Positions 3-35,688 of a stretch of 64,000 bases of DNA are shown here, in pieces. Position 1 is the first letter of the stretch; each line of letters begins with the position of its first letter. Source of the DNA: Bradyrhizobium lablabi (GTDB lineage: Bacteria; Pseudomonadota; Alphaproteobacteria; Rhizobiales; Xanthobacteraceae); the NCBI RefSeq assembly GCF_001440475.1, contig NZ_LLYB01000055.1, forward strand, positions 23,188 through 87,187, given 5' to 3'. A program made the position numbers and the translations under genes. The notes beneath the pieces were generated by a model. That model was not told the DNA's origin and did no database searches. It worked only from the letters and a program-made list of their open reading frames with translations.

Positions 3-593
3 AAGTCACTGATGACCAGCCTGGAAACTGCTTACGCTCTCGACATCAAAATCCGGCTAGAGGACGAAAAGCTGTCGCCTGAGGGTATCGCAACGGTCGT
101 GGAGGAGTTCGAAAAGGACGGCGTCGTCTATGACAGGGACGACGTCAGGGTGATCGCTTTCACGGTCGATCACGGGGCGGCCATCAAGCCCGCCGTGGGT
201 TATCGCATTGAATACAAAGGTCGCGCGGTGGTGATTTCGGGCGACACCCGGTACGACCAAAACGTCATAAAATATAGTGCCGGCGTTGACCTGCTCATTC
301 ACGAGGTCTGTGTCGCACGAGCTGAACTGCTGTCTTCAAATCCGTACATGCGGCGCGTCATGGACCACCATACAAGTCCCCGGGAAGCCGGACAGGTGTT
401 TTCTTTGGCCAAGCCGAAGCTGGCAGTCTATTCCCATCTAGTCTTTCTCGGCAGCGACAAAATTCCTCGGGCAACCGTTGAAGATATCGTGGCAGGAACG
501 CGCGAAATCTATGACGGCCCGCTCCAGGTCGGTGCGGACTTAATGTCCTTTGAAATTGGCGATACTGTTATCGTGCGTCAACGCAATCCGTAG
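3..593 (+). CDS. MBL-fold metallo-hydrolase, RNase Z-like (5' end outside window)
   Basis: This is the C-terminal part of a metallo-beta-lactamase-fold hydrolase. The frame is open to the left edge, so the N-terminal part with the HxHxDH zinc motif is missing. Visible motifs in order are FTVDHG, ISGDTRYDQN (Asp zinc ligand region), LLIHEV, HHTSPREAG and YSHLVF (last His), the arrangement of the C-terminal half of RNase Z and related MBL enzymes. The substrate cannot be told from this half. The inner ATG at position 12 is probably not the start. Confidence 0.8.
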   Translation, partial: KSLMTSLETAYALDIKIRLEDEKLSPEGIATVVEEFEKDGVVYDRDDVRVIAFTVDHGAAIKPAVGYRIEYKGRAVVISGDTRYDQNVIKYSAGVDLLIHEVCVARAELLSSNPYMRRVMDHHTSPREAGQVFSLAKPKLAVYSHLVFLGSDKIPRATVEDIVAGTREIYDGPLQVGADLMSFEIGDTVIVRQRNP

Positions 594-651
594 AAGAAGA
601 TGCAAACCTTTGCGCGCAAATGCGCCGCGAGATCGCGAAGTCATACTCCGC

Positions 652-750
652 TGTCATCCCCCGCGAAGGCAGGGACCAGTATTCCAGAGACGTCAGCGAT
701 TGAACCGATAGGCCGCGGCGTACTGGATCCCCGCATGCGCGGGGATGACA
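652..750. repeat. Intergenic palindromic repeat
   Basis: A long imperfect inverted repeat. The left arm (652-665) reads TGTCATCCCCCGCG and the right arm (738-750) CGCGGGGATGACA. Inner complementary pieces (CCAGTA and TACTGG) allow a longer hairpin. It resembles the dispersed extragenic palindromes of Bradyrhizobium genomes. A similar element lies at 35719-35823. The short frame through it is repeat-derived, not a gene. No further gene is visible between 594 and 878. Confidence 0.7.
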
Positions 751-878
751 TTGGTATGTTGCGTCGCTATCTCGACGTCATTGTGAGCGCAGCGACTTGT
801 CCGCCGTAGCTCGAACGCGAGGGCGGAAGCGATCCATAGCGCGGCGCAGCGGATCGATAGATTGCGCCAAGCGCAGAC

Positions 879-1226
879 CTAATACCGCGGCGTATTGTAC
901 TGCGGACAGCGATGCACGTAGTCCCAGGGAATGTCATAGACGCAGGTGTAACGGAGGTCGTCCGACTGTTTGATTGGCGGCGGGGCCTCTACGATCACCG
1001 GTCGGTCGATATCGCTCGGCAGACCGTAGACGATGCCGCCGGGCCAGAAACCGCTTACGCCTCTGTGATGGTGATGGTGCCCGGCGTTGGGGAATGCCGG
1101 AAAGGCCGGACGCGTTGGCGCCGCGCCCGCACCGCGTGCCGCGGCCGGATCGGCCGATACTTCGCCCGCAGCAAGGACAAGCGCGACTGCGCTGAGAGAT
1201 GCAATAAACGTCGTTCGATAGGTCAT
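879..1226 (-). CDS. Small exported protein of unknown function
   Basis: A 115-residue protein with a clear Sec signal peptide (MTYRTT followed by a hydrophobic stretch ending near VSA, residues 1-25). The mature part is rich in Ala/Pro/Gly, has a run of five His at about 50-54 and two Cys near the C-terminus (about 95 and 107), which could form a disulfide. I chose the ATG at 1226 because it puts the signal peptide first; an upstream in-frame ATG at 1301 would add 25 residues ahead of it. I do not recognise the family. The His run could bind metal, but that is speculation. Confidence 0.65.
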   Translation of the reverse strand: MTYRTTFIASLSAVALVLAAGEVSADPAAARGAGAAPTRPAFPAFPNAGHHHHHRGVSGFWPGGIVYGLPSDIDRPVIVEAPPPIKQSDDLRYTCVYDIPWDYVHRCPQYNTPRY

Positions 1227-1395
1227 GGCATTCACCCATGGGAGGTTACTGGGCAGCATTCCCAAAACGCTAAGCCGGGCATTTCGTGCCCGCAAAGACA
1301 TAATTAATTATTGGTTAAGACGTAATCTTAATGGTGCGGCGTACGATGTGAAAGCCCGCCCGGGAGCGGCCGAGTGAAGCAGGAGTTGCCAGGGG

Positions 1396-1935
1396 ATGTC
1401 CGATTCAGTGCTCAAGCGAACGACCGAAATCTTTACGACGCGATTGCAGGTGCTTGCCGGCTTGCTCGACACCGCCGAGACGCAATGGCTCGAGAAGGCC
1501 GAGAGCCCCGAAGCCTTGCTGGCGGCCCGGCTGGCCGATGACATGTTTCCATTCCCGCACCAGATCGTCTTCACCTGCAACCAGCCCAATCAGTTCGCTG
1601 CCTGGTGCAGCGATGCGGCGGCGCCCGAGACCGATCCGGCGACGCTGGATTTTGCCGGCCTGAAGCGGCATGTGCAGGACACGATCGCTTACGTCGCGGA
1701 ACGGACCGCCGGGATCGATGACCGCGTGCTCGACCGCGACAAGCGGATCGATCTGCCGGGCGGCAGGTTCATTTCATTCACCGGCCATCTCTATGTCGAC
1801 GAGTGGCTGCTGCCCAATTTCTACTTCCATCTCGTCACCGCCTACGACATCCTGAGGCAACAAGGCGTGCGGATCGGCAAGGCCAATTACATGGCGCATC
1901 TTGCCGGACGGGTGCGCACCGCGGAGGCGGAGTAG
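1396..1935 (+). CDS. DUF1993 family protein
   Basis: A 179-residue soluble protein starting MSDSVLKRTTEIFTTRL. Its organisation matches DUF1993: an N-terminal helix, a middle MFPFPHQIVFTCNQ segment, and a C-terminal YVDEWLLPNFYFHLVTAYDILR helix with conserved aromatic and His residues. The family looks like DinB-type four-helix bundles and has no assigned reaction. A methyltransferase gene follows 29 bp downstream on the same strand, so the two may be cotranscribed. Confidence 0.8.
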   Translation: MSDSVLKRTTEIFTTRLQVLAGLLDTAETQWLEKAESPEALLAARLADDMFPFPHQIVFTCNQPNQFAAWCSDAAAPETDPATLDFAGLKRHVQDTIAYVAERTAGIDDRVLDRDKRIDLPGGRFISFTGHLYVDEWLLPNFYFHLVTAYDILRQQGVRIGKANYMAHLAGRVRTAEAE

Positions 1936-1964: not shown

Positions 1965-2699
1965 ATGGGTGACATCTACGATCCCCAGTTCGTGAAGGCC
2001 GTCTTCGATCGCTGCTCGGACCGCTACATCACCTTCAGCCTGCTCTGTTCGTTCGGCTTCACCGAGCGCTGGCGCAAGCAATGCGTGGCGGCGATGCCGG
2101 CGCTTCCCGGTGGCGGTGCGCGCGGCTACGATCTGATGGCGGGGACCGGCGAGGTCTGGCCGCATCTGTTGCAGCGCTTTGACGATGTCGGCGCGATCAC
2201 CGCGGTCGACATCTCCTCCGGCATGCATCGCCGCGCCATGGAGCGGCTGCACGCCCACCGCGCCCACCGGATCGAGTTCATCGAGGATGACGTGCTGGCG
2301 AGCGATCTGCCGCCGGAGAGCGCGGACTTCGTCATCTCCACCTTCGGCCTGAAGACATTCAACCCCGAACAGCATGCCCGCCTGGCCGCCCTGCTCGCGC
2401 GCGTGCTGAAGCCCGGCGGCGTCTTCTCCATGATCGAGGCGTCCGATCCCAAGGGATGGTGGCTGAGGCCGCTCTATCTGTTTCACCTCAAGGTCGTCTT
2501 GCCGCTCGTCGAACGCACGCTGCTGCGCGGCGCGCAGGATTTTGCGATGATCGGCACTTACAGCACCAATTTCGGCAATGCGGCCGAGATCGCGGCCATG
2601 CTGCGCGGCCACGGCCTTGAGGTAAAATTCACAAAATACTTTTTCGGCTGCGCCACCGGCGTCGCCGGCCGCAAGGTCGCGCCGGTGGTCGAACCATAG
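1965..2699 (+). CDS. Class I SAM-dependent methyltransferase, UbiE-like
   Basis: A 244-residue Rossmann-fold methyltransferase. Motif I is YDLMAGTGEVW (about 49-59), followed by an acidic motif after strand 2 (ITAVDISSGM), then FIEDDVLASDLP and FVISTFGLKTF. The overall order resembles UbiE/COQ5 enzymes, which methylate quinone rings, but the substrate here is unknown. It lies between DUF1993 and GNAT genes on the same strand with short gaps (29 and 17 bp), suggesting one transcript. Confidence 0.8.
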   Translation: MGDIYDPQFVKAVFDRCSDRYITFSLLCSFGFTERWRKQCVAAMPALPGGGARGYDLMAGTGEVWPHLLQRFDDVGAITAVDISSGMHRRAMERLHAHRAHRIEFIEDDVLASDLPPESADFVISTFGLKTFNPEQHARLAALLARVLKPGGVFSMIEASDPKGWWLRPLYLFHLKVVLPLVERTLLRGAQDFAMIGTYSTNFGNAAEIAAMLRGHGLEVKFTKYFFGCATGVAGRKVAPVVEP

Positions 2700-2716
2700 G
2701 CCAATGAAGGTGAACG

Positions 2717-3214
2717 ATGGCGGATGATGCTGCGATGACGGCGCGGCCGGCTGAACCGTCCGAGACCGCTGTGCTTGCGCGCCTGTGGTATGACGGCTGG
2801 CAGGATGCCCACGCCGCGATCCTGCCGCCGAAATTAGCGCAGGCGCGCACGCTCGATAGCTTTGCCGAGCGGATGTCCGCCGCGCTCGCCGATGTGCGGG
2901 TAATCGGGCCGCGAGGCGCGCCGTCAGGCTTCGCGATGCTGAAGGGCGATGAGCTCTATCAATTCTATGTCGCGTCGGAAGCGCGCGGCACCGGGATTGC
3001 CGCCGCGCTGATGATGGACGCGGAAGCACGGTTGTCGGAGCGCGGTGTCGAAACGACGTGGCTCGCCTGCGCCATCGGCAACACGCGCGCCGCCAAATTC
3101 TATGAGAAGTGCGGATGGCATCTAGCCAGAACGATGGTCAACCGCCTCGACACGGCCGATGGTCCGTTCGATCTGGAAGTCTGGCGCTACGAGAAGCTCC
3201 TGATACGGCGGTGA
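2717..3214 (+). CDS. GNAT family N-acetyltransferase
   Basis: A 165-residue acetyltransferase. The acetyl-CoA binding motif A is at YVASEARGTGIAAALMMDAE, and the C-terminal CAIGNTRAAKFYEKCGWH segment is motif B. The ATG at 2717 follows a purine-rich AAGGTGAACG. The acceptor substrate is unknown. It is probably the last gene of the 1396-3214 cluster. Confidence 0.85.
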   Translation: MADDAAMTARPAEPSETAVLARLWYDGWQDAHAAILPPKLAQARTLDSFAERMSAALADVRVIGPRGAPSGFAMLKGDELYQFYVASEARGTGIAAALMMDAEARLSERGVETTWLACAIGNTRAAKFYEKCGWHLARTMVNRLDTADGPFDLEVWRYEKLLIRR

Positions 3215-3271
3215 AGGCGCGTTAGCGGGGCCGTACGCGTCCATCGGCTTGTGCGCAAGCAGCCCGAACGC

Positions 3272-3664
3272 TCAGGGATTCCAGCCGCCGGTGCCGTACT
3301 CGCGGGTGATAATTTCAAGAAGATGTCCATTGCTCTCCTTGAAGTAGATCCCGCGCCCGCCGTCGTGGTGGTTGATCTTGCCTGGTTGAGTCTGTCCGGG
3401 GTCGGCCCAATACGGAAGCTGCCGCTCCCGTATCCGGCTGAAGATTTCGTCGAACTCGGCCTCGCTGGTCAGAAATGCATAGTGCTGCGGAGCAATGTCG
3501 CCGTCGACATCCATGTAGTCGAGGTTGGCGCCGTTTTCGGTGGTGACCATGTAAAACGGTCCCCATCGTCGCGGAGCCGGCAGACCAAGCAGCTCGGCCA
3601 GGAATGTTGCCGAGGCCTTGCGGTCGTGGGTCGGCAGGATCGTATGGTTGAAATGGATGGCCAT
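3272..3664 (-). CDS. VOC family protein (glyoxalase/dioxygenase superfamily)
   Basis: A 130-residue single VOC protein. The N-terminal MAIHFNHTILPTHDRKASATF places a His on the first strand. The second half contains HHDGGRGIYFKESNGHLLEIIT, which carries the second-repeat metal ligands (H and the E of LLEI). This fits a dimeric metal-dependent lyase, isomerase or dioxygenase-type enzyme, though the substrate is unknown. It converges on the GNAT gene. Confidence 0.8.
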   Translation of the reverse strand: MAIHFNHTILPTHDRKASATFLAELLGLPAPRRWGPFYMVTTENGANLDYMDVDGDIAPQHYAFLTSEAEFDEIFSRIRERQLPYWADPGQTQPGKINHHDGGRGIYFKESNGHLLEIITREYGTGGWNP

Positions 3665-3867
3665 TGGCGCTCTCCCGGGCTGGAATCGCTCTGCGGCGTG
3701 GGCGGGTTAACTCGAACGCAGGTTGTATCGTTCCCCTCATGAAAGTAGGCGTCTTGCTGCGCCGCTTCCTGCTCGCAAAAAAGTGAGGCGGCGTGCTCGC
3801 CGGCCTGTAGCTTTCGGCCCATCCCATTCGTCTTGCACCCAGAGAACGTCAAACTGGAGGTCAGGGA

Positions 3868-7334: not shown

Positions 7335-7402
7335 GTTGAGCTCCCTGGTCTGAGATCCGTCACCGGCGGCTCGCCGCCGATGACGAGGATCGCTTCAGTG
7401 TT

Positions 7403-8077
7403 TTACGCGGCCTGCTGCTGGCCGGCCTGCTCGCGGATGATGTAGTCGGCGTACCAGTCCGGCCAGTTGGTGTCGTACTGACCGCCGTTCTGCTTCTCGT
7501 ATTCGCCATGGGCGGCGGAGGCGCGGCGCAGCGCAGCCGCGAGATCGGCTTGCGAGGTGAAGGCCGTGCCATTGCCATCGATGCGTCCGGGCAACCGCGC
7601 GGTGACTTCCTGCAGCAGCCAGCCGTTGCCATCGGGATCGTTGAACGAGGCGTAGGAGCGATAGCTGCCGTGCTCGGGATGCGGACCGCTCAGGCGATTG
7701 CGTCCGAACAGATAGGGCTCGTCCGTGCCGACGTGCACATCGCCATTGGCGTGAAACACGTCGCTGATCGCGGCACCGCGGTCGAGCAGCTCTTTGCGAG
7801 CGGCCTCGATGTCGGAGACGACCAGATAGAGGCCCTGCGCGGAGCCGGGTGCGGCCGGGGTCACGTTCTTGCCGAAGATGACCGAGGCGCTGGAGCCGGG
7901 CGGGGTGAACTGGATGACACGGTAGTCGTCGGGGCCGGCGAAGTCGGCATCGAGCCGCCAGCCAAGGTTCGTGTAGAACTGCTTGGAACGTTCAACGTCG
8001 GAAACCGGGATGACGACGACTTCGAGCTTCAGGTCGACGGCCGGCGTGGCGGGGGTGCGGGGGGCTGTAGCGCTCAT
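7403..8077 (-). CDS. VOC family protein with C-terminal extension
   Basis: A 224-residue protein. Residues about 15-140 form a glyoxalase/bleomycin-resistance-type VOC domain (KLEVVVIPVSDVERSKQFYTNLGW at the start; GWLLQEVT at the end). The last 60 residues are a separate helical tail ending in YDTNWPDWYADYIIREQAGQ. AGGAGA precedes the ATG. It is divergent from a MarR regulator, with paired palindromes in the shared control region, so its expression is probably repressed by that regulator. Confidence 0.82.
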   Translation of the reverse strand: MSATAPRTPATPAVDLKLEVVVIPVSDVERSKQFYTNLGWRLDADFAGPDDYRVIQFTPPGSSASVIFGKNVTPAAPGSAQGLYLVVSDIEAARKELLDRGAAISDVFHANGDVHVGTDEPYLFGRNRLSGPHPEHGSYRSYASFNDPDGNGWLLQEVTARLPGRIDGNGTAFTSQADLAAALRRASAAHGEYEKQNGGQYDTNWPDWYADYIIREQAGQQQAA

Positions 8078-8109
8078 GGTTTATCTCCTGTTGTTGGATT
8101 TGCTATTAG

Positions 8110-8191
8110 ATCGTATGCGATACATTCGTATGCGTGCTATAAAGCGCCATGAATGCCTGATGTCAAGGCTTCCGATTTAATCGGATACGAT
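8110..8191. promoter_or_regulatory. Two copies of an ATCG-N4-CGAT operator between the VOC and MarR genes
   Basis: The divergent control region holds two 12-bp palindromes with arms ATCG and CGAT: ATCGTATGCGAT (8110-8121) and ATCGGATACGAT (8180-8191), plus a half copy TCGTATGCG (8126-8134). They flank the 5' leaders of both genes and are good candidates for the MarR binding sites. Confidence 0.55.
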
Positions 8192-8239
8192 ATATATGGA
8201 TGCGAGACTTCACATGTTCGTGTCGGAAAGGACGAACCC

Positions 8240-8767
8240 ATGAGACCGAATGACGGTTCCAGGCCCGGCTCAACTGCCGGGGCCAGGGACAATTCCAAAG
8301 ACAGTTCAAAGGCTAACCAGAAGACCAAGCCGTCGCCGGGCGAGCGGCGCCTCGGCGACTTCCTGTGCTTCGCGGTCTATTCGGCCAATCTGGCCTTCGG
8401 GCGGGCCTACAAGAAGGGCCTGGACGAACTCGGCCTGACTTACCCGCAATGGATCGCGATCGTGGCGCTGTGGGAGCAGGATGGTCAGACGGTCAGCGAA
8501 CTCGGCGAGAAGATGTTTCTGGAATCCAACACGCTGACGCCGATCCTGAAAAAGCTCGAGGCGGCGGGCTATCTGCGCCGCCAGCGCGATCCCGCGGACG
8601 AACGGCAGGTGCGCATCAGCCTGACCGAGGGCGGCCGGCGGTTGCGCGAAAAGGGCATGCACATGAACCTGGTGACCGCGACCGGATTGAAGCCCGACGA
8701 GTTCGCGCGGTTGCAGGAAAACGTCGTCACGCTTCGTGACAATCTGATCAAGGCGACGGCAGAGTAG
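8240..8767 (+). CDS. MarR family transcriptional regulator
   Basis: A 175-residue winged-helix regulator. After a polar N-terminal tail of about 35 residues come helix 1 (GDFLCFAVYSANLAF), LTYPQWIAIVALW, the recognition region LGEKMFLESNTLTPILKKLEAAGYL, and the wing RDPADERQVRISLTEGG. The family senses phenolics or oxidants. I chose the ATG at 8240 because GGAAAGGA lies 7 nt upstream; an in-frame ATG at 8153 would place the operator copies inside the gene. It is divergent from the VOC gene. Confidence 0.85.
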   Translation: MRPNDGSRPGSTAGARDNSKDSSKANQKTKPSPGERRLGDFLCFAVYSANLAFGRAYKKGLDELGLTYPQWIAIVALWEQDGQTVSELGEKMFLESNTLTPILKKLEAAGYLRRQRDPADERQVRISLTEGGRRLREKGMHMNLVTATGLKPDEFARLQENVVTLRDNLIKATAE

Positions 8768-8836
8768 GCATGACAATGCGCTCGAGCGGCGCTTTGATGC
8801 GATCTTATTGCGGCGGCGCGTGACGGAGAAGGTGCG

Positions 8837-9814
8837 ATGAATGTTGCGTCACAGGGGGCTTCGCTTCGCGGACGGATCGCCGTCGTGGCAGGTGCGACGC
8901 GGGGCGCCGGCCGCGGCATTGCGGCTGCGCTCGGCGAGGCCGGCGCGACGGTGATCTGCACCGGACGCAGCAGTGCTCGCGCCGATGCTCGAACGCGATC
9001 TGATTACGACCGGCCGGAGACGATCGAGGAGACCGCCGAACTCGTGACCAGCCTTGGCGGCAAAGGCGTTGCTATTGCGGTCGACCATCTCGAATCTTTG
9101 CAGGTCGCGGCGCTGGCCGAACGTATCCGCGCCGAGCATGGCCGCATCGACGTGCTCGTCAACGACATCTGGGGCGCCGAAGTGCTGAAGGGCGGACCGC
9201 CGCAGTGGAACACGCCGATCTGGAAGCTCGACCTGCAGAAGGGCCTGCGGATTCTGCGGCTCGGCATCGAGACGCATCTGGTGACCTCGCATTACCTGCT
9301 GCCGCTGCTGGTCGCGCAACCCGGCGGCCTGTTGGTGGAAGTCACTGACGGCACGGCCGATTACAACGCAACGCATTATCGCATCTCGGTGTTTTACGAT
9401 CTCGTCAAGCAGAGCGTGAATCGCCTCGCGTATTCGCAAGGTCACGAACTCGCGCCCCACGGCGCGACGGCGATAGCGATCACACCGGGTTGGCTGCGCT
9501 CAGAAATGATGCTGCAAAATTTCGGCGTCACCGAAACAAACTGGCGCGAGGCGCTGACGGAGCGGGGAGGCGGCAAGCACCAGGCGCCGCCGGATTTTGC
9601 GCTGTCGGAATCGCCGCGCTATGTCGGACGCGCCGTGGCGGCGCTGGCCGGCGATCCCGATCGGTCGAAGTGGAATCAGAAGTCTGTCAGCTCCGGCGAA
9701 CTCGCGCGCCACTATGGCTTTACGGATATCGACGGCACGCGGCCCGACATCTGGCGTTACACCGCCGAGGTGAGGGAAGGCGGCAAGGTGGCGGACCCAG
9801 GTGATTATCGCTAG
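8837..9814 (+). CDS. SDR family oxidoreductase
   Basis: A 325-residue short-chain dehydrogenase. The nucleotide-binding motif is VVAGATRGAGRGIAAAL (near 17-33) and the catalytic pair is in FYDLVKQSVNRL (YxxxK). Arg after strand 2 (TGRSS) suggests NADP(H). It is longer than the classic 250-residue SDR, with an extended substrate loop and a C-terminal tail. The substrate is unknown. GGAGAAGGTGCG precedes the ATG. Confidence 0.85.
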   Translation: MNVASQGASLRGRIAVVAGATRGAGRGIAAALGEAGATVICTGRSSARADARTRSDYDRPETIEETAELVTSLGGKGVAIAVDHLESLQVAALAERIRAEHGRIDVLVNDIWGAEVLKGGPPQWNTPIWKLDLQKGLRILRLGIETHLVTSHYLLPLLVAQPGGLLVEVTDGTADYNATHYRISVFYDLVKQSVNRLAYSQGHELAPHGATAIAITPGWLRSEMMLQNFGVTETNWREALTERGGGKHQAPPDFALSESPRYVGRAVAALAGDPDRSKWNQKSVSSGELARHYGFTDIDGTRPDIWRYTAEVREGGKVADPGDYR

Positions 9815-15414: not shown

Positions 15415-16740
15415 TCAATGCATCGTCTGCTCCGATGCCGCGATCCACGCGATGACGGCTTCCGAGAAGCCGTGCACGCGCGTCCACGCATCGTACCCGA
15501 CACCGTGCTGGTACGAGGCCACATTCACCATGTAGCCGCGCCCCTTCGGGTCGGGGACCGAGTCGTGGCTCTGCTCGTCGGTGAAGACGATCAGGCGATC
15601 GCCCCTGCGGTCGATCTCGCTGATGGCCTTGCCGAGATAGGTCCCGCTATGCGGCTGCGAGCCGACGATCTTGTCGCGCAGCGCAAAGCCGCGGCGCGGC
15701 GGGATCTTCACGACCTCATTGCTGAACGTGAAGATCTCCACCTCGTCGCAGACCTCGCGGGCGAGGACCGCCAGACCGCAGGCCGCCTCGGCGCGGGTCA
15801 TCTCGGACTGCGCCGAGAGCGGATAGAACATCGACCCTGATACGTCGATCAGGAGCCGCGTGCGGCCCGGAAGCCGCGCATAGCCCTTGATCGACTTCAG
15901 CATCGCGGATTCGAGCTCGGCCTCGAAATCCGGCGCATAGCGCGCCGCCGTGATGAAGCGGTAGGGAAGGATACGGTCCGTCCGCATCGCCTCGATCGCA
16001 TCCGCAATGGTGCTGCGTGGCACCTCCACCTTCTGCATCAGGCGCAGATTGCGGAGCAGCGCCAGGGCACCCAGCCGGTTCTCGCCGATCAGCCGCTCGA
16101 AGGTCGCGCGCTTGTCCTTGCCGGACGAGAGCGAAACCTCCCAGGTATCGGGCGAAGCCAGCTCGCCGTCGACGAGCTGCTTCCACACCTTGGCCTGGTC
16201 CGCGTCCTTTGGCTTGGCGTGAACCAGGAACAGCACGTCCCTGATGCGCACCGCGCCGTCGCGGTCGTACTTCGCGAGCTGATAGGCGTCGAACTTGGTC
16301 ACCGCGCGCGCAAGGCCCTTCTTGACCTGCGCCGAGACGGGCTGACGCTTGCGCTGCTGCATCGGTCCGAGCGCATCCGCCCAGTAGATCGCAAGCAGCT
16401 CCGTCATCTCGTCGGGCCGCTGGATGATGCGGGCGAGCGTATCGGCGACCAGCACGCGATGCTTCTCGTGCCGCGCCATCTCGCGCACCACCACTAGCGG
16501 CGCATGCCGAAGCTTCATCGCCTCGCGCGCCTCGATGGCGAGCGCCGCGACGCGCGCGGGCTCGACCTGCGGCACCAGAAGCATGATGCGCTCGGCGATC
16601 GCAACGCCGTCCTCGTAGAACTGGTTCTCCCACAGGAGGCAGTTCATCAGCGCGCGCTTCAGCGCCATTTCGGGCGTGAAGCGCTTGCCGCGCGCACCCT
16701 CGAACGTGAAGGCGCGAACGATCTTGTTCAGATGGACCAT
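15415..16740 (-). CDS. rsr: TROVE domain protein, bacterial Ro60 orthologue (Rsr)
   Basis: A 441-residue Ro60/Rsr protein. Residues about 1-270 form the helical-repeat TROVE domain, starting MVHLNKIVRAFTFEGARGKRF. The C-terminal part is a vWFA-like domain with a MIDAS site: DVSGSM (299-304), Thr367 in SGTYLG and Asp388 in FTDEQ. Ro60 proteins bind Y RNAs and misfolded or fragmented RNAs and in bacteria assist exonuclease-mediated RNA maturation and decay. At 441 residues it is shorter than the Deinococcus protein (about 530). AGAGGAGG precedes the ATG. Four Y-RNA-like elements lie just upstream on the same strand, probably in the same transcript. No rtcB or RtcR gene is next to it. Confidence 0.93.
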   Translation of the reverse strand: MVHLNKIVRAFTFEGARGKRFTPEMALKRALMNCLLWENQFYEDGVAIAERIMLLVPQVEPARVAALAIEAREAMKLRHAPLVVVREMARHEKHRVLVADTLARIIQRPDEMTELLAIYWADALGPMQQRKRQPVSAQVKKGLARAVTKFDAYQLAKYDRDGAVRIRDVLFLVHAKPKDADQAKVWKQLVDGELASPDTWEVSLSSGKDKRATFERLIGENRLGALALLRNLRLMQKVEVPRSTIADAIEAMRTDRILPYRFITAARYAPDFEAELESAMLKSIKGYARLPGRTRLLIDVSGSMFYPLSAQSEMTRAEAACGLAVLAREVCDEVEIFTFSNEVVKIPPRRGFALRDKIVGSQPHSGTYLGKAISEIDRRGDRLIVFTDEQSHDSVPDPKGRGYMVNVASYQHGVGYDAWTRVHGFSEAVIAWIAASEQTMH

Positions 16741-16780
16741 GATGGCCTCCTCTTGGGGTTGATTAGTGATCGGAAAGGGG

Positions 16781-16920
16781 CGCCGGGGAACAGGCGAGTC
16801 TGGACTGCCCTTGCGGGCGTTGTCACACGCTCTATCCTCTGAGCTACGGACTTTGGGTCCGGAAGGAATCGAACCTTCGACCTTGTGAGTGCGAAGTAAC
16901 AGATCTCTTCACCACCGGCG
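16781..16920 (-). ncRNA. Y RNA 4 (tRNA-mimic Y RNA, proximal to rsr)
   Basis: A 140-nt element whose ends pair as CGCCGG (16915-16920) with CCGGCG (16781-16786). Inside the stem are the conserved GGTGAAGA and CGCCTGTTCC strands and a GAG/CTC plus TCTG/CAGA helix. The enclosed module has a T-arm (16862-16878, loop TTCGATT), then an acceptor-like stem CGGAC/GTCCG capped by CCAAA (16847-16861), then a canonical D-arm GCTCAGAGGATAGAGC (16829-16844) and a GCCC-GCAA-GGGC hairpin. The T-arm before D-arm order is that of a permuted tRNA, as in YrlA-type bacterial Y RNAs. It ends 40 nt before the rsr ATG. Confidence 0.87.
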
Positions 16921-16929
16921 TTTTGGAAA

Positions 16930-17097
16930 CCACGATCCGGGAACAGGCGATGCTGAGACCCCAGCCTGCAGTTTACCTGCAGGCCAGGAAGCGCTCTACC
17001 AGCTGAGCTACCGGCGCATGGAACGCCGGGCGGGACTCGAACCCGCGACCGCTCGATTAACAGTCGAAGTAACAGCGATCTTCACCACGGATCGTGG
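16930..17097 (-). ncRNA. Y RNA 3 (tRNA-mimic Y RNA)
   Basis: A 168-nt element closed by a perfect 10-bp helix, CCACGATCCG (17088-17097) with CGGATCGTGG (16930-16939). The Ro-stem strands GTGGTGAAGATCGCTG and CAGCATCGCCTGTTCC follow. It is the most complete tRNA mimic of the four: T-arm (17030-17046, loop TTCGAGT), acceptor-like stem CCGGCG/CGCCGG capped by a 7-nt loop (17011-17029), a canonical D-arm GCTCAGCTGGTAGAGC (16993-17008), and a long CTGCAG-containing hairpin in the remaining part. A tRNA-finding program may report part of it as a tRNA or pseudo-tRNA. Confidence 0.88.
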
Positions 17098-17105
17098 AGG
17101 GGGTT

Positions 17106-17248
17106 GGCGGGGAACGGACGATGCTGTTGCCGCTCCGAAGAGCACACTCAGCCACGGCATTGCTGCCGGCGGGATTCGAACCCGCGACTCCGGACCGCGA
17201 TAGCGGCACGGCGCTTCTACCGAAGTAACAGACATCTTCACCACCGCC
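17106..17248 (-). ncRNA. Y RNA 2 (tRNA-mimic Y RNA with reduced D-arm)
   Basis: A 143-nt element closed by GGCGG (17244-17248) and CCGCC (17106-17110). The stem continues as GATG(T)CTGTT paired with AACAGCATC (9 bp, one bulge). The module has a T-arm (17169-17185, loop TTCGAAT) and an acceptor-like stem CGGCA/TGCCG closed by a GCAA tetraloop (17155-17168). In place of a normal D-arm it has a short GCTC-TTCG-GAGC hairpin, so D-loop/T-loop contacts are probably weaker than in Y3 and Y4. Confidence 0.85.
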
Positions 17249-17250
17249 CT

Positions 17251-17270
17251 GCCGATGCTTGCGCATCGGC
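17251..17270 (-). other. Hairpin between Y RNA 1 and Y RNA 2
   Basis: A perfect 8-bp stem GCCGATGC/GCATCGGC with a GCAA tetraloop separates Y1 from Y2. It has no U-run and so is not an intrinsic terminator. It could be a processing site or a stabilising structure between tandem RNAs. Confidence 0.6.
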
Positions 17271-17281
17271 AGTTGAAGGGT

Positions 17282-17466
17282 ACGCTGGGGAACAGGCGAT
17301 ATCGGTGTCAGTGACAGCAACGCAGTTTCGCCTCTTGTGGAAGCAAAGCTGCGCCGGGCCGCGTGCAAGCCCTCGCGAGGCCGCATCCCGGTGCGTGTGT
17401 CAAAGGCGGGAGTCGAACCCGCTTTTCCAATGGGTGCGAAGTATCCGAAATCTTCACCACCAGCGT
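17282..17466 (-). ncRNA. Y RNA 1 (divergent, distal member)
   Basis: A 185-nt element closed by ACGCTGG (17460-17466) and CCAGCGT (17282-17288). The Ro-stem has GTGGTGAAGATTTCGG opposite CCGATATCGCCTGTTCC, forming GAT/ATC and TCGG/CCGA helices around a T-T mismatch. A T-arm is present (17406-17422, loop TTCGACT), but no capped acceptor stem or D-arm is recognisable. Its place is taken by a longer GC-rich region with a CGCAG/CTGCG hairpin. It is the first unit of the array and the least tRNA-like. Confidence 0.8.
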
Positions 17467-17467
17467 C

Positions 17468-17493
17468 GGTTTAGCCGCGATACGCGGCAAACC
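17468..17493 (-). other. Hairpin just upstream of Y RNA 1
   Basis: On the minus strand GGTTTGCCGCG and CGCGGCTAAACC form an 11-bp stem with one bulged T and a TAT loop. It ends next to the 5' strand of Y1. Like the Y1-Y2 hairpin it may mark a processing site or the leader of the array transcript. Confidence 0.5.
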
Positions 17494-17704
17494 AGATTGA
17501 AAAGAAATTTCATGCGCGGCGCTCAGCGGCGCCGCTACCGCGAACCCCTCAGGGTTCGCTCTGCCATCGGTATCCGGCTTACGCCTCGTTCCCTCCGGCA
17601 GGCCCCGCGCTTTCGGGCACACGCCTGCCGGCGCGAGCCCCGGGATCCGGGTCTCCCGTTCCGGCTTGCGCCGGGATGTTTCGAATGAGCCTGCTTCGGA
17701 CAAT
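17494..17704. other. GC-rich noncoding block upstream of the Y RNA array
   Basis: No convincing gene is seen. On the minus strand it contains several short hairpins, including a perfect 8-bp GCGAACCC/GGGTTCGC stem. The array promoter must lie here or just downstream, since a terminator closes the block on the far side. I find no clear sigma-70 promoter and no convincing GG-N10-GC sigma-54 element. The block could be a dispersed Bradyrhizobium repeat. Confidence 0.4.
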
Positions 17705-17738
17705 AAAAAACCCTCCGGAGCAGTTGGCTCGGGAGGGT
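17705..17738 (-). terminator. Intrinsic terminator of the candidate small RNA
   Basis: On the minus strand ACCCTCC pairs with GGAGGGT, with inner CGAGC/GCTC pairing, followed by six T (17705-17710 as A on the plus strand). It is the clearest rho-independent terminator in the window. It separates transcripts from the right from the Y RNA array. Confidence 0.85.
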
Positions 17739-17900
17739 CCGTATGGAGCGGACTGTCGATCTCGTTTACGCGAGATCGCTCCCATGAGCCGGGCGTGCGT
17801 CATCGATTGACCTGAGGCCATTCGATCCTCTGACGAGCTTTTCGCAACCTTGGTTCATCACTCGGCTCATGTTTGATCGCGGGCCCAATGCTCGCGAAGG
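17705..17900 (-). ncRNA. Candidate structured small RNA
   Basis: A likely transcript of about 200 nt on the minus strand. Upstream is TTGACA (17930-17935), 17 bp, then TATTCC (17907-17912), a promoter with a perfect -35 and a weak -10. At the end is an intrinsic terminator at 17705-17738. Between them the RNA can form a 9-bp long-range helix CATGAGCCG/CGGCTCATG (17863-17871 with 17783-17791) and a GATCTCG/CGAGATC hairpin (17758-17777). I do not recognise the family. A 34-codon frame (17766-17870) exists in it but has no convincing ribosome-binding site. Confidence 0.6.
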
Positions 17901-18071
17901 GCGCGGGGAATACGCCTGTAATTTTGGATTGTCAACCCAATGAACGCGATAATTTGGCGCAGTCCGCGCCATGGCCGGAAGTGCGTCCCAAATATTCAGC
18001 AGGGACGGACTTGCTGTTCGAGTGCTCCACGCCAATGTTAGCCGACAGTATTCGTCACCGATGAACGTGTG

Positions 18072-22634: not shown

Positions 22635-23270
22635 CTATTTCATTGTCGCAAGCCGTTCGATCATCTCTTCAATCGAGTTGAACAGATGCGTCGGTCCCGC
22701 GGCTTGCAGCGCAGAAGGGAGGGCATAGCCCCAAGCTACCGCGCCCGAATCCATCTCGGCGGCTTTCGCGGCCTCGATATCGCGGATTTCATCGCCGATG
22801 CAGATCGTCTCCGATGGCTTGACCCCAAGTTGCCGGGCGACGCGACGGAATTTCCAGTGCTTGCCAAAGATCGCCGCGCCGCAGTCGAAGCGGGTGACGA
22901 GAGTGGTGACGGGACCAAGCACTCGCCGAACAGAGGCCTCGCTGTCCGAACTGACGATGGCGATCTGGATGCCGAGGCGCTGAAGCTTGGTCAGCGTTTC
23001 CGGAATGCCTGAAAAGAGCGATGTTTCACCCGCCGCGGCGAGCTTGCGCTTCCGCATGTCATTGACGATGGCCGGAAGCTGCCATGTGGATACGCCAAGC
23101 CGCGCCATGATTTCCCGCGCGGACAGCCCGCGCAGATCTTCCAGCTCGTCCGCCGTGACCGGTTTGAGACCGAAACGCGCGATCACGTCGTGAAAGGAAG
23201 CGCGAAACCAGGGAAGCGTGTCGGCAAGCGTGCCGTCGAAATCGAAGATGGCGAGACGATAGCGTGTCAT
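22635..23270 (-). CDS. HAD family hydrolase, phosphoglycolate phosphatase-like
   Basis: A 211-residue HAD phosphatase. Motif I is IFDFDGTLADTLPWF (nucleophile and acid/base Asp), motif II IAIVSSDS, motif III the Lys in FGKHWKF, and motif IV IGDEIRDIEAAKAA. The helical cap lies between motifs I and II. It resembles Gph-type phosphatases, but the substrate is not certain. An SDR gene lies 21 bp upstream on the same strand. Confidence 0.85.
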   Translation of the reverse strand: MTRYRLAIFDFDGTLADTLPWFRASFHDVIARFGLKPVTADELEDLRGLSAREIMARLGVSTWQLPAIVNDMRKRKLAAAGETSLFSGIPETLTKLQRLGIQIAIVSSDSEASVRRVLGPVTTLVTRFDCGAAIFGKHWKFRRVARQLGVKPSETICIGDEIRDIEAAKAAEMDSGAVAWGYALPSALQAAGPTHLFNSIEEMIERLATMK

Positions 23271-33589: not shown

Positions 33590-33598
<9 letters not shown>

Positions 33599-33913
33599 TC
33601 CGGTGACGAGCTTGAGCCCGACAATGCCGGCGACGATCAGTCCGATGCAGGCCAGGCGGGCGGCGGTCGCGGGCTCGCCGAACAGGGCAATGCCCAGGAT
33701 CGCGGTTCCGACCGCGCCGATTCCGGTCCATACCGCGTAGGCGGTTCCGATCGGCAGCGCTTTCAGGGCAAGACCGAGCAGCAGGATGCTGCCGGCCATG
33801 CAGGCGAGCGTCAGGACCGATGGAATGGGCCGGGTGAAACCTTCAGTATATTTGAGGCCGATCGCCCAGCCTATTTCCATGAGGCCGGCGACGAACAACA
33901 CGATCCAGGCCAT
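33590..33913 (-). CDS. sugE: SMR family guanidinium exporter (SugE/Gdx)
   Basis: A 107-residue small multidrug resistance protein with four transmembrane helices. Glu13 in [19 protein letters not shown] is the essential proton/substrate-coupling residue, and the GLMEIGWA context marks the SugE/Gdx subgroup rather than EmrE. Gdx proteins export guanidinium. The guanidine-II riboswitch directly upstream supports that cargo. GGAGG precedes the ATG at 33913. The protein works as an antiparallel dimer. Confidence 0.9.
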
Positions 33914-33931
33914 GACAACCCTCCTGATCAG

Positions 33932-33980
33932 GCAGGGTCGTCCCCGCGGATGAGCTGTGAGATTGGAAGGTCGTCCCTCC
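33932..33980 (-). promoter_or_regulatory. Guanidine-II (mini-ykkC) riboswitch
   Basis: On the minus strand two 6-bp hairpins with identical ACGA tetraloops lie in tandem: GGAGGG-ACGA-CCTTCC (33965-33980) and GCGGGG-ACGA-CCCTGC (33932-33947), separated by 17 nt. Two small hairpins with ACGR loops are the definition of the mini-ykkC motif, which binds guanidinium in the loops. The second hairpin ends 18 nt before the sugE ATG and close to its ribosome-binding site, so ligand binding would expose the site and switch translation on. Confidence 0.9.
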
Positions 33981-34068
33981 GCAGCCGATATGGGACTGGA
34001 GAGCCGCCCCTGCAACGACCAAATGAGGCTTGATTAGCCTCCCTTTCCCTGCCAAACGCTCGAGCCTC

Positions 34069-35688
34069 ATGTCCGACATTGCTGTTACTTCCGAATCGCC
34101 GTCCCGCTCGCCGCTTGCAGATGAAGTGGCGCGGCGGCGCACGTTTGCGATCATCTCCCACCCGGACGCCGGCAAGACGACGCTGACCGAAAAGCTGTTG
34201 CTGTTCGGCGGCGCCATCAACCTGGCGGGGCAGGTCAAGGCCAAGGGCGAGCGCCGCAACACCCGCTCGGACTGGATGAAGATCGAGCGCGAGCGCGGAA
34301 TCTCGGTCGTGACCTCGGTCATGACGTTCGAGTTCCAGGATCTCGTCTTCAACCTCCTGGACACGCCGGGCCACGAAGACTTCTCCGAGGACACCTACCG
34401 CACGCTCACGGCCGTCGATTCCGCGGTCATGGTGATCGACGCCGCCAAGGGCATCGAGGCGCGCACCCGAAAGCTGTTCGAGGTGTGCCGGCTGCGCGAC
34501 ATCCCGATCATCACCTTCATCAACAAGATGGACCGCGAGAGCCGCGATACGTTCGAGCTCCTGGACGAGATCGAAAAGACGCTGGCGCTCGATACCACGC
34601 CGATGACCTGGCCGGTCGGCCGCGGCCGCGACTTTCTCGGCACCTACGACGTCGTCAATGGCGGCGTGCGGCTGCTCGAAGGCGGCGGCGCCAAGACCGG
34701 CGCGACCGAGCAGATCGATATTGCTGATCTCGCCGGCCGCAACGCCAATCTCGACGTCACCGAGATCAAGGACGAACTCGCGCTGGTGTCGGAAGCCTGC
34801 AAGCCGTTCGAACTCGAGGCGTTTCGCGAGGGGCACCTGACGCCGGTCTATTTCGGCAGCGCGCTGCGCAATTTCGGCGTCGGCGACCTCCTGGAAGGTC
34901 TCGGCAAGTTTGCGCCCGCGCCACGCGCGCAGGATTCGAATGTTCGTAAAGTGGAGGCCGCCGAGCCGCGCATGAGCGCGTTCGTGTTCAAGATCCAGGC
35001 CAACATGGATCCGAACCACCGCGACCGCATCGCCTTTGCGCGGCTGTGCTCCGGCAAGCTCAGCCGCGGCATGAAGGCGAAACTGGTGCGCACCGGCAAG
35101 AACATGTCGCTGTCGTCGCCGCAATTCTTCTTTGCCCAGGACCGCTCGGTGGCGGACGAGGCCTTTGCCGGCGATGTCGTCGGCATTCCGAACCACGGCA
35201 CCTTGCGGATCGGCGATACGCTGACGGAAGGCGAGGACATCACCTTTGTCGGCGTCCCCAGCTTTGCGCCGGAAATCGTCCGCCGCGTGCGCCTCACGGA
35301 TGCGATGAAGGCGAAGAAGCTGAAAGAAGCGCTGCAGCAGATGTCGGAAGAGGGCGTAGTGCAGGTGTTCCGCCCGCGCGACGGCGCGCCGGCGCTGGTC
35401 GGCGTCGTCGGTCCGCTGCAGCTCGACGTGCTGAAGGCCCGGCTCGATGCGGAATACTCGCTACCGGTGGAGTTCGAGGTCTCGGAATTCCAGCTCGCGC
35501 GCTGGATTTCTTCCGACGACCGCAAGAAGCTCGACGCTTTCGTCGCCGCCAACAATTCCGGCATTGCCGATGACGTCGACGGCGATCCCGTGTTCATGGC
35601 CAAGAACGAATTCTATCTCGGCTATACCCGCGAACGCGCCGAGGGCATCAACTTCTCCAACGTCAAGGACGTGAAGAAGAAAGCTTGA
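34069..35688 (+). CDS. prfC: Peptide chain release factor 3
   Basis: A 539-residue translational GTPase. The P-loop is SHPDAGKTTLTEK (about 30-42), with switch I RERGISVVTSVM, DTPGHEDFSEDTYRTL and NKMDRE. The G domain is followed by two beta-barrel domains and the RF3-specific C-terminal domain (VGVVGPLQLDVLKARLDAEYSLPVEF). RF3 recycles RF1/RF2 from the ribosome after termination. I chose the ATG at 34069; an upstream in-frame TTG would add 13 residues. Confidence 0.93.
   Translation: MSDIAVTSESPSRSPLADEVARRRTFAIISHPDAGKTTLTEKLLLFGGAINLAGQVKAKGERRNTRSDWMKIERERGISVVTSVMTFEFQDLVFNLLDTPGHEDFSEDTYRTLTAVDSAVMVIDAAKGIEARTRKLFEVCRLRDIPIITFINKMDRESRDTFELLDEIEKTLALDTTPMTWPVGRGRDFLGTYDVVNGGVRLLEGGGAKTGATEQIDIADLAGRNANLDVTEIKDELALVSEACKPFELEAFREGHLTPVYFGSALRNFGVGDLLEGLGKFAPAPRAQDSNVRKVEAAEPRMSAFVFKIQANMDPNHRDRIAFARLCSGKLSRGMKAKLVRTGKNMSLSSPQFFFAQDRSVADEAFAGDVVGIPNHGTLRIGDTLTEGEDITFVGVPSFAPEIVRRVRLTDAMKAKKLKEALQQMSEEGVVQVFRPRDGAPALVGVVGPLQLDVLKARLDAEYSLPVEFEVSEFQLARWISSDDRKKLDAFVAANNSGIADDVDGDPVFMAKNEFYLGYTRERAEGINFSNVKDVKKKA

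Follow-up and report, generated by a model that had tools for sequence, protein, structure and literature searches.

The gene rsr, which encodes a bacterial orthologue of the Ro60 protein, is found in Bradyrhizobium lablabi on contig NZ_LLYB01000055.1 of assembly GCF_001440475.1, in a stretch of 64,000 nucleotides (nt; positions 23,188 to 87,187 of the forward strand) that is referred to below as the window. Coordinates are window positions unless a locus handle such as L107 is given, and all parts of the proposed operon are located on the minus strand, where they follow each other from 5′ to 3′ in the order sigma-70-like promoter, leader open reading frame (ORF), intrinsic terminator, a structured element here named RNA-B, four Y RNA units (Y1 to Y4) and rsr (Table 1). 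Bacterial Y RNAs of the YrlA type bind Ro60 (also named Rsr) and carry tRNA-like modules. A preliminary description of the window, made from its sequence alone, had recognized the array; this part stands, but the description reached upstream only to Y1, so that leader ORF, terminator and RNA-B, i.e., the more novel part of the locus, escaped notice. From the arrangement of these parts it is inferred, with a probability of about two in three, that the locus is a Ro60–Y RNA operon switched on by stalled translation of the leader, the inference extending to its expression, the binding of Rsr and the trigger.

Table 1. Parts of the rsr locus in the window, in the direction of transcription
Feature	Position	Strand	Basis
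Sigma-70-like promoter, TTGACA-17-TATTCC, GC-rich discriminator	17908..17936	-	Promoter-like match in 67/69 loci
Leader ORF, 34 codons, MSRVMNQGCEKLVRGSNGLRSIDDARPAHGSDLA; second in-frame ATG at 17858	17766..17870	-	Same-place ORF in 67/69 loci
Candidate antiterminator strand, CGGCTCATGGGAG (region 2), close to the leader ORF end	17779..17791	-	Complementary to terminator 5′ arm
Hairpin Pa, leader stop codon in loop	17758..17777	-	6/6 pairs changed on both sides (63 sequences)
Intrinsic terminator, CCCTCCCGAGC..GCTCCGGAGGG then T6	17705..17737	-	Pattern in 69/81 loci
RNA-B, structured noncoding element between terminator and Y1	17517..17681	-	Covariation; own covariance model, 148 bits
Y1, longest unit: common core, T-arm-like hairpin, no D arm, large multi-hairpin module	17282..17466	-	33-sequence alignment
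Y2: T arm, degenerate D region, module differing between species	17106..17248	-	YrlA 21.2 bits; core helices as in other units
Y3: full permuted tRNA mimic	16931..17096	-	YrlA 47.8 bits; ARAGORN; covariation
Y4: permuted tRNA mimic (T arm, acceptor, D arm)	16781..16920	-	YrlA 39.7 bits; 23-sequence alignment
rsr, bacterial Ro60 orthologue, 441 amino acids, TROVE ring and vWA-like domain with DVSGSM	15415..16740	-	Pfam, AlphaFold, Foldseek

The rsr gene and the Y RNA array

The product of rsr matches the Pfam TROVE model (PF05731) with 60.1 bits at a cut-off of 23, and a phmmer search with it matched two solved TROVE proteins. An AlphaFold model obtained with 15 sequences has a mean predicted local distance difference test (pLDDT) score of 83, and the best 13 Foldseek matches of this model are all Ro60/TROVE proteins (9kop, 9l5y, 2nvo, 1yvp and others; E values of 1e-21 to 1e-9), among them Ro60 of the Thermus phage phiLo, Deinococcus Rsr and human Ro60. 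The vWA Pfam model (PF25045) gives 20.9 bits, i.e., under its cut-off of 27.7, and the DVSGSM motif is invariant across the 15 aligned Rsr sequences. The TROVE match and the modelled Ro60 fold identify the product as a TROVE protein, which agrees with the earlier assignment of the gene as rsr; binding of Y RNAs by this protein is putative.

Within the genus, rsr is, judged from the genomes searched, a patchily distributed gene. The copy in the window is 95% identical to rsr of Bradyrhizobium jicamae PAC68. In a sample of 296 genomes of the family, only members of the window's genus were found to carry a near full-length rsr, and in a sample of 146 genomes of the genus 39 do so (in genome G019 the copy was matched in two pieces). 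Four other genus genomes gave an rsr match, i.e., two distant copies in G036, a truncated one in G118, a fragment in G053 and a weak match in G090.

The four minus-strand units lie where they had been placed in the preliminary description, except that the ends of Y3 shift from 16930–17097 to those in Table 1, and Y4 ends, as described, 40 nt before the rsr ATG at 16740. The closing ends of each unit are complementary (ACGCTGG/CCAGCGT in Y1, GGCGG/CCGCC in Y2, CACGATCC/GGATCGTG in Y3 and CGCCGG/CCGGCG in Y4). The sequence GGTGGTGAAGA followed by CTTCG within 4–12 nt occurs three times in the window, each time in the array, with 0.00 occurrences expected from shuffles; this 5′ motif, which had been regarded as common to the units, is exact in Y1, Y2 and Y4 and deviates at the first base in Y3. 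The 3′ motif has five matches in the window when up to one mismatch is allowed, compared to 2.0 expected (5 of 100 shuffles reach five), and four exact matches, one per unit; by itself, it is weak evidence.

Folding of single sequences yields structures more stable than those of shuffled sequences for Y3 (trimmed; z −3.9) and Y4 (z −2.1), and not for Y2 (z −0.9; 37/200 shuffles fold equally well). The Rfam model for YrlA (RF02553) matches Y3, Y4 and Y2 with scores (Table 1) that are all below its gathering score of 69 and does not match Y1; across the 8.8-Mb genome, no other sequence matches it as well as Y3 and Y4. The units are bacterial Y RNAs as a broad kind, as had been suggested, rather than members of the Rfam family. 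ARAGORN calls a tRNA-Asn inside Y3, which is read as a by-product of tRNA mimicry.

Conservation was analysed in a sample of 81 rsr loci, composed of 80 relatives, the best of 241, together with the window. Counts of units in these loci were obtained from motif patterns and are rough: at least one unit is found upstream of rsr in 78 loci, at least two in 70, at least three in 61 and at least four in 46. An array unique to the window is thereby rejected, and the earlier impression that a multi-member array is exceptional does not hold; a study of bacterial Y RNAs from 2014 reportedly noted already that a species may have more than one Y RNA. A looser pattern, which finds zero complete units in 80 downstream control stretches (≤2 kb each), identifies complete units also outside Bradyrhizobium: five in Terricaulis (L157), three each in Hyphomonas (L146, L152) and in a metagenome-assembled genome (MAG) of Acidobacteriaceae (L172), two each in Granulicella (L174) and a Clostridiales MAG (L167), and one in Pelotomaculum (L171). 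The two patterns differ in some loci; the strict pattern finds zero units in L143 (where only 383 nt upstream are available), L167 and L171, the looser one 0, 2 and 1, and in L146 the counts are 1 and 3, respectively.

A core is common to all unit types and consists of the closing helix, a second helix and, as internal loop, UGAA facing UCGnnnGUUCC; the tip differs. These three elements probably form a putative Rsr-binding core, so that the array would combine one such core with position-specific modules. The modules are tRNA-like and diverge between the units, as had been proposed; however, the designation of all four units as tRNA mimics was too strong because a T arm together with a clear D arm is found only in Y3 and Y4. 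Among 39 four-unit loci of the Bradyrhizobium type, both T-loop and D-arm motifs are present in Y3 in 39, in Y4 in 33, in Y2 in 2 and in Y1 in 0, the D-arm motif being absent from Y1 in 39/39. (Only loci with exactly four units were counted here; loci judged by their number to lie outside Bradyrhizobium were dropped, with the Hyphomicrobiales MAG L131 retained.) In 68 of the 81 loci, one or more units have both motifs.

The strands predicted to pair do covary in homologous loci, which bears out the structure expected in the preliminary description. When 25 Y3-type units, taken both from Bradyrhizobium and from distant Alphaproteobacteria, are aligned, 90.9% of the cells are paired, compared to 33–50% when the partner strand is slid, and the covariation score is 0.345, compared to 0.127 in shuffles, of which 0/500 are as high. 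The number of pairs changed on both sides (13 vs 11.1 in shuffles, 54/500 as high) is not unusual; in the closing helix 6 of 11 pairs are changed in this way. The corresponding numbers are 13 of 34 predicted pairs for Y4 (23 sequences) and 15 of 56 for Y1 (33 distinct sequences), both obtained without a shuffle control, and the compensatory changes are few in the two types of Y2 (2/37 and 3/45 pairs).

The arrays vary in other ways. In Bradyrhizobium neotropicale (L107) an IS481-type transposase gene (305–1516, minus strand) lies just upstream of a Y3 reduced to its 3′ part, and RNA-B is found on a different contig. In L161 an ammonium transporter gene (2472–3719) splits the leader, RNA-B and the first Y units from the last Y unit and rsr. 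Genome G036 has two distant Rsr copies (~50% identity). Inspection by eye suggests that Y-like units with a different type of motif precede the copy in L070, where no RNA-B was found. A 52%-identical Rsr in L093 is preceded by Y-like units that seem, by eye, to alternate with apparent ordinary tRNA genes.

RNA-B

In an alignment of 35 RNA-B sequences, 28 pairs are formed, 13 of which are changed on both sides, with 98.3% of the pairing retained; none of 500 shuffles is as good on any of these measures. The score of the window with the corresponding covariance model (Table 1) is that of one of the 35 sequences from which the model was built. Searches of Rfam, at the gathering threshold and then at E values up to 5, gave for the RNA-B of the window only a 16-bit match to CC3513 (E value 4), which was not repeated in L162, and assignment of RNA-B to a known Rfam family was rejected.

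The element is identified by motif in 59 of the 81 loci. Twenty of the 22 motif-negative loci were searched with the covariance model, which gave nothing convincing (E value 0.57 or more), and the result was the same in seven additional loci, L070, L085–L087, L089, L093 and L094 (in L089 the element falls outside the sequence searched); in L155, RNA-B is cut by the contig end. In the Hyphomonadaceae loci the leader is present and RNA-B was not found by motif or by covariance model.

Among the 146 genus genomes RNA-B is found in 41, i.e., in 39 of the 39 with near full-length rsr of the window type and in 2 of the 107 without it, G121 and G093. In G121 the leader and RNA-B remain, with no rsr match in the genome; G093 retains the leader, the 3′ tail of rsr and a portion of RNA-B. 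The remnant stretches without an intact rsr are L189 (leader and RNA-B) and L190 (leader, incomplete RNA-B and the 3′ tail of rsr). The genomes with distant or partial rsr matches (G036, G118, G053, G090) are not among the 41. An initial search of 60 relatives found RNA-B in 10 genomes, each with rsr, and at the class level (385 genomes) it is found in three, exactly those with an Rsr of the window clade; three other class genomes with a distant TROVE protein gave no RNA-B match. In the genomes searched, the presence of RNA-B thus closely tracks the clade of rsr found in the window.

The leader and its modelled switch

A terminator pattern followed by a T-run is found in 69 of the 81 loci, and the outer six pairs of the stem are intact in all of the 63 sequences aligned. 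Upstream of the terminator a promoter-like match is seen in 67 of these 69 loci (the match in L170 is probably spurious), and an ATG-started ORF of ~30–35 codons, which starts 118–137 nt and ends 23–32 nt upstream of the terminator, occurs in 67 of the 69, compared to a frequency of 1.4% per shuffled sequence. The stop-codon hairpin (Pa) and the hairpin that follows (Pb) display covariation in 9/9 pairs. Promoter-like sites are found upstream of the leader in 53 of 67 loci, while the stretch from terminator to rsr (687 to 2354 nt) harbors a promoter-like site of the pattern used (TTGAC-N-TA) in 0/67 loci, with 4.7 expected from shuffles. Because no such site is found between terminator and rsr, the Y RNAs are likely, on this sequence evidence, to be co-transcribed with rsr. 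Furthermore, the leader and the array are kept together across Bradyrhizobium and Hyphomonadaceae.

A strand near the end of the leader ORF (region 2) is complementary to the 5′ arm of the terminator, and this pairing is conserved (92.9% of the cells are paired, compared to 31–59% when slid). In a test with random synonymous variants of the codons in this strand, a median of 4% pair equally well over 67 loci, with 42/67 loci at ≤5%, i.e., the codons used are biased towards the antiterminator. As modelled, a candidate translation-coupled intrinsic attenuator is made up of leader ORF, terminator and conserved complementary strand.

Modelling was done with the nascent RNA, i.e., before the second arm of the terminator exists, and a switch was scored when the antiterminator probability was >0.4 with an early ribosome and <0.1 with the ribosome at the stop codon. 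Using transcription starts estimated from the promoter, a switch is predicted in 59/67 loci, compared to 4/134 shuffled leaders, with median antiterminator probabilities of 0.81 and 0.00, respectively, for the two ribosome positions; with a fixed start the numbers are 57/67 loci and 9/201 shuffles. Outside Bradyrhizobium 16 of 17 loci switch, with either choice of start. In the window, over five starts, the predicted antiterminator probability is 0.77–0.90 with the ribosome at codons 1–8, 0.29–0.87 at codons 12–24 and 0.00 at codons 28–35. The median in the absence of a ribosome is 0.76, and translation may therefore be needed for termination.

Leaders of similar build are also seen elsewhere. 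In L164 a similar leader–terminator (leader 7400–7560) is located upstream of a MatE transporter gene (7704–9023; MatE by Pfam), and in L155 a leader of the same build (8200–8420) precedes a gene taken as MatE, an assignment Pfam-checked in L164 only. In these MatE-type leaders the short ORF ends, by eye, in AREG..M and is followed by the terminator. Such a position would fit a sensor that responds to translation trouble in general.

A codirectional rtcB gene is found no more than 1.2 kb downstream of rsr in 34 of the 81 loci; the assignment was checked with the Pfam RtcB model in L104, L130, L134 and L161. Elsewhere in the window a Guanidine-II riboswitch (33933–33982, minus strand, 37 bits) precedes a small multidrug resistance gene (ORF 33590–34015, minus strand), to which the gene for release factor RF3 (34030–35688) is divergent.

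Interpretation and comparison with known systems

Given the parts of the locus and their conservation, the covariation in Y3-type units, RNA-B and the leader hairpins, the lack of a second such promoter-like site and the modelled nascent switch, a single promoter would drive transcription of the leader ORF, the intrinsic terminator, RNA-B, the four Y RNAs and rsr as one unit, with rtcB added in many relatives, and the Y RNAs would be cut from one precursor. A ribosome that reaches the leader stop codon would cover the antiterminator strand, such that the terminator forms and transcription stops. If the ribosome instead stalls early or fails, for example as a result of damaged or uncharged tRNAs or of antibiotics, the antiterminator would pair with the 5′ arm of the terminator and allow read-through into the Y RNAs and rsr. 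Each Y RNA would bind Rsr via the common stem and internal loop, and the differing modules, which range from tRNA-shaped to unrelated hairpins, may gate Rsr or bring a partner or substrate to it, presumably for RNA repair.

A number of observations weigh against this model. The locus counts are not independent because most loci are from one genus. A general consensus scan of the window, stricter than the promoter pattern used here, lists neither the leader promoter nor the terminator, the stem of which has a mismatch; the case for a single promoter therefore depends on conservation, both of the TTGAC-N-TA pattern and of the stem. The leader peptide gives no signal of purifying selection (the ratio of nonsynonymous to synonymous polymorphism, pN/pS, is 0.77 in frame, compared to 0.87 and 0.73 in the other frames), so that a conserved small protein was rejected and the peptide is treated as a sensor ORF. 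The window itself has no rtcB beside rsr, a convergent DUF2167 gene being found there instead, and the rtcB-like genes of the genome lie on other contigs. The antiterminator displays little covariation (1/10 pairs changed on both sides; 319/500 shuffles reach this value) because the terminator arm is nearly invariant, and its energy is unremarkable compared to shuffled region 2 (a median of 18/200 shuffles are as good). The synonymous-codon test is weaker in the window (5.5%) and, among the loci listed, outside Bradyrhizobium (34% in L148, 32% in L152 and 27% in L158).

The equilibrium of the full-length leader likewise speaks, for the most part, against the switch. With estimated starts only 19/67 loci switch (0/134 shuffles), and with a fixed start 12/67 (0/201 shuffles), the terminator mostly winning despite an early ribosome. 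In the window, an early ribosome leads to the antiterminator at starts 17904 and 17902, to an approximately even distribution at 17900 and to the terminator at 17898 and 17894; with start 17904 the terminator forms poorly even with the ribosome at the stop codon. This dependence on the start arises partly because the 5′ end of the leader RNA (17904–17890) is complementary to the second arm of the terminator (17721–17711) and competes if transcription starts at 17904 or 17902. A window model that starts at 17916, i.e., upstream of the likely start, gave a result that was too clean and was superseded. As the full-length result is far weaker than that for the nascent RNA, the order of events during transcription would decide the outcome.

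That the terminator is strong enough to win this equilibrium in most loci would also be expected if the locus were an ordinary Ro60–Y RNA locus, with the Y RNAs expressed from their own promoter of an unrecognised type. The upstream promoter, leader and terminator would then serve to produce, independently of them, a short RNA or a small protein. This explanation, which is unlikely yet to be taken seriously, would also account for the retention of the leader and RNA-B in G121, which has no rsr match, and for the MatE gene in L164, on account of which the leader element is not exclusive to rsr. However, none of 67 loci has a site of the pattern used between terminator and rsr, the modelled nascent antiterminator forms also in distant taxa (16/17), and leader and array stay joined across Bradyrhizobium and Hyphomonadaceae.

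Alternatively, the leader could act through Rho, in a translation-dependent manner, rather than through an antiterminator, as a leader of this kind has been described in a rhizobium, upstream of a DUF1127 gene in S. meliloti (PMC12218461). This alternative is improbable; the S. meliloti leader was found to be without a functional intrinsic terminator, whereas here a terminator pattern with a T-run is found in 69/81 loci and its outer pairs are invariant in 63/63. Least credible of all is a set of decayed, tRNA-derived repeats without function. The units do resemble tRNAs, and ARAGORN names one of them tRNA-Asn, but the covariation score of the Y3-type is far above both controls, the positions of the units are fixed, and the common core is found in every unit type.

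The operon controlled by leader translation remains the preferred explanation, and a wider version of it may be considered, although the odds are rather against it. In this tentative scheme, a Ro60–Y RNA–RtcB repair operon, cleavage or loss of tRNA would stall the leader ribosome and open the terminator, such that diverse Y RNAs, tRNA-shaped and otherwise, and Rsr (in many relatives also RtcB) are made, and RNA-B would be a noncoding RNA of a new class, acting in the service of the Ro60 particle or carrying RNA polymerase through ~1 kb of untranslated RNA. More generally, possible roles of RNA-B are those of an extra particle RNA, a processing signal or an aid to RNA polymerase in traversing the long untranslated stretch.

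The locus bears on how bacterial Ro60 particles are activated and on the reason for their tRNA-shaped RNAs. If the leader is a translation sensor, it would constitute a second, independent coupling of tRNA or ribosome trouble to Ro60 and an RNA ligase, in Alphaproteobacteria. The array provides, in nature, Y RNAs that probably have one protein-binding core in common and differ in their modules, so that Rsr binding may be separable from the role of the module, and RNA-B is a structured RNA without an Rfam family match above threshold that is closely tied to the rsr clade. Among the papers listed in literature searches, none dealt with attenuation of an rsr operon, and a search for the combination of Ro60, RtcB and attenuation gave none.

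A close parallel is the Salmonella rsr-yrlBA-rtcBA operon, which is expressed through RtcR upon tRNA cutting (PMC7790460). Both systems combine Ro60, Y RNAs and, often, RtcB as a unit with a proposed response to tRNA damage (PMC7790460, PMC9879122). In Salmonella, RtcR and sigma-54 sense tRNA ends with cyclic phosphates, whereas the locus described here has a leader ORF and a terminator behind a sigma-70-like promoter (RtcR was not searched for here). As with YrlA and the Salmonella Y RNAs, the units lie beside rsr, Y3 and Y4 carry the permuted T arm–acceptor–D arm module and, in many relatives, Y RNAs and rtcB are found in one stretch. In contrast, four units are located upstream of rsr here rather than two downstream, Y1 is without a D arm, and no unit reaches the gathering score of the YrlA family.

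In the Deinococcus Rsr–Y RNA–PNPase complex, Rsr is bound to the lower stem of the Y RNA and the remainder is free to tether a partner (PMC4726728). A similar division of labor is suggested here from sequence alone, except that the single scaffold of Deinococcus is replaced by four different modules. For the leader, the nearest counterparts are leader-peptide attenuators and the upstream ORF of the S. meliloti DUF1127 leader, which is proposed to sense inhibition of translation and shortage of ribosomes or tRNAs (PMC12218461). Read-through there depends on whether a short upstream ORF is translated, as it putatively does here; the S. meliloti leader is proposed to be Rho-dependent, in contrast to the intrinsic terminator and the complementary strand near the end of the ORF in the rsr leader, and the downstream genes differ.

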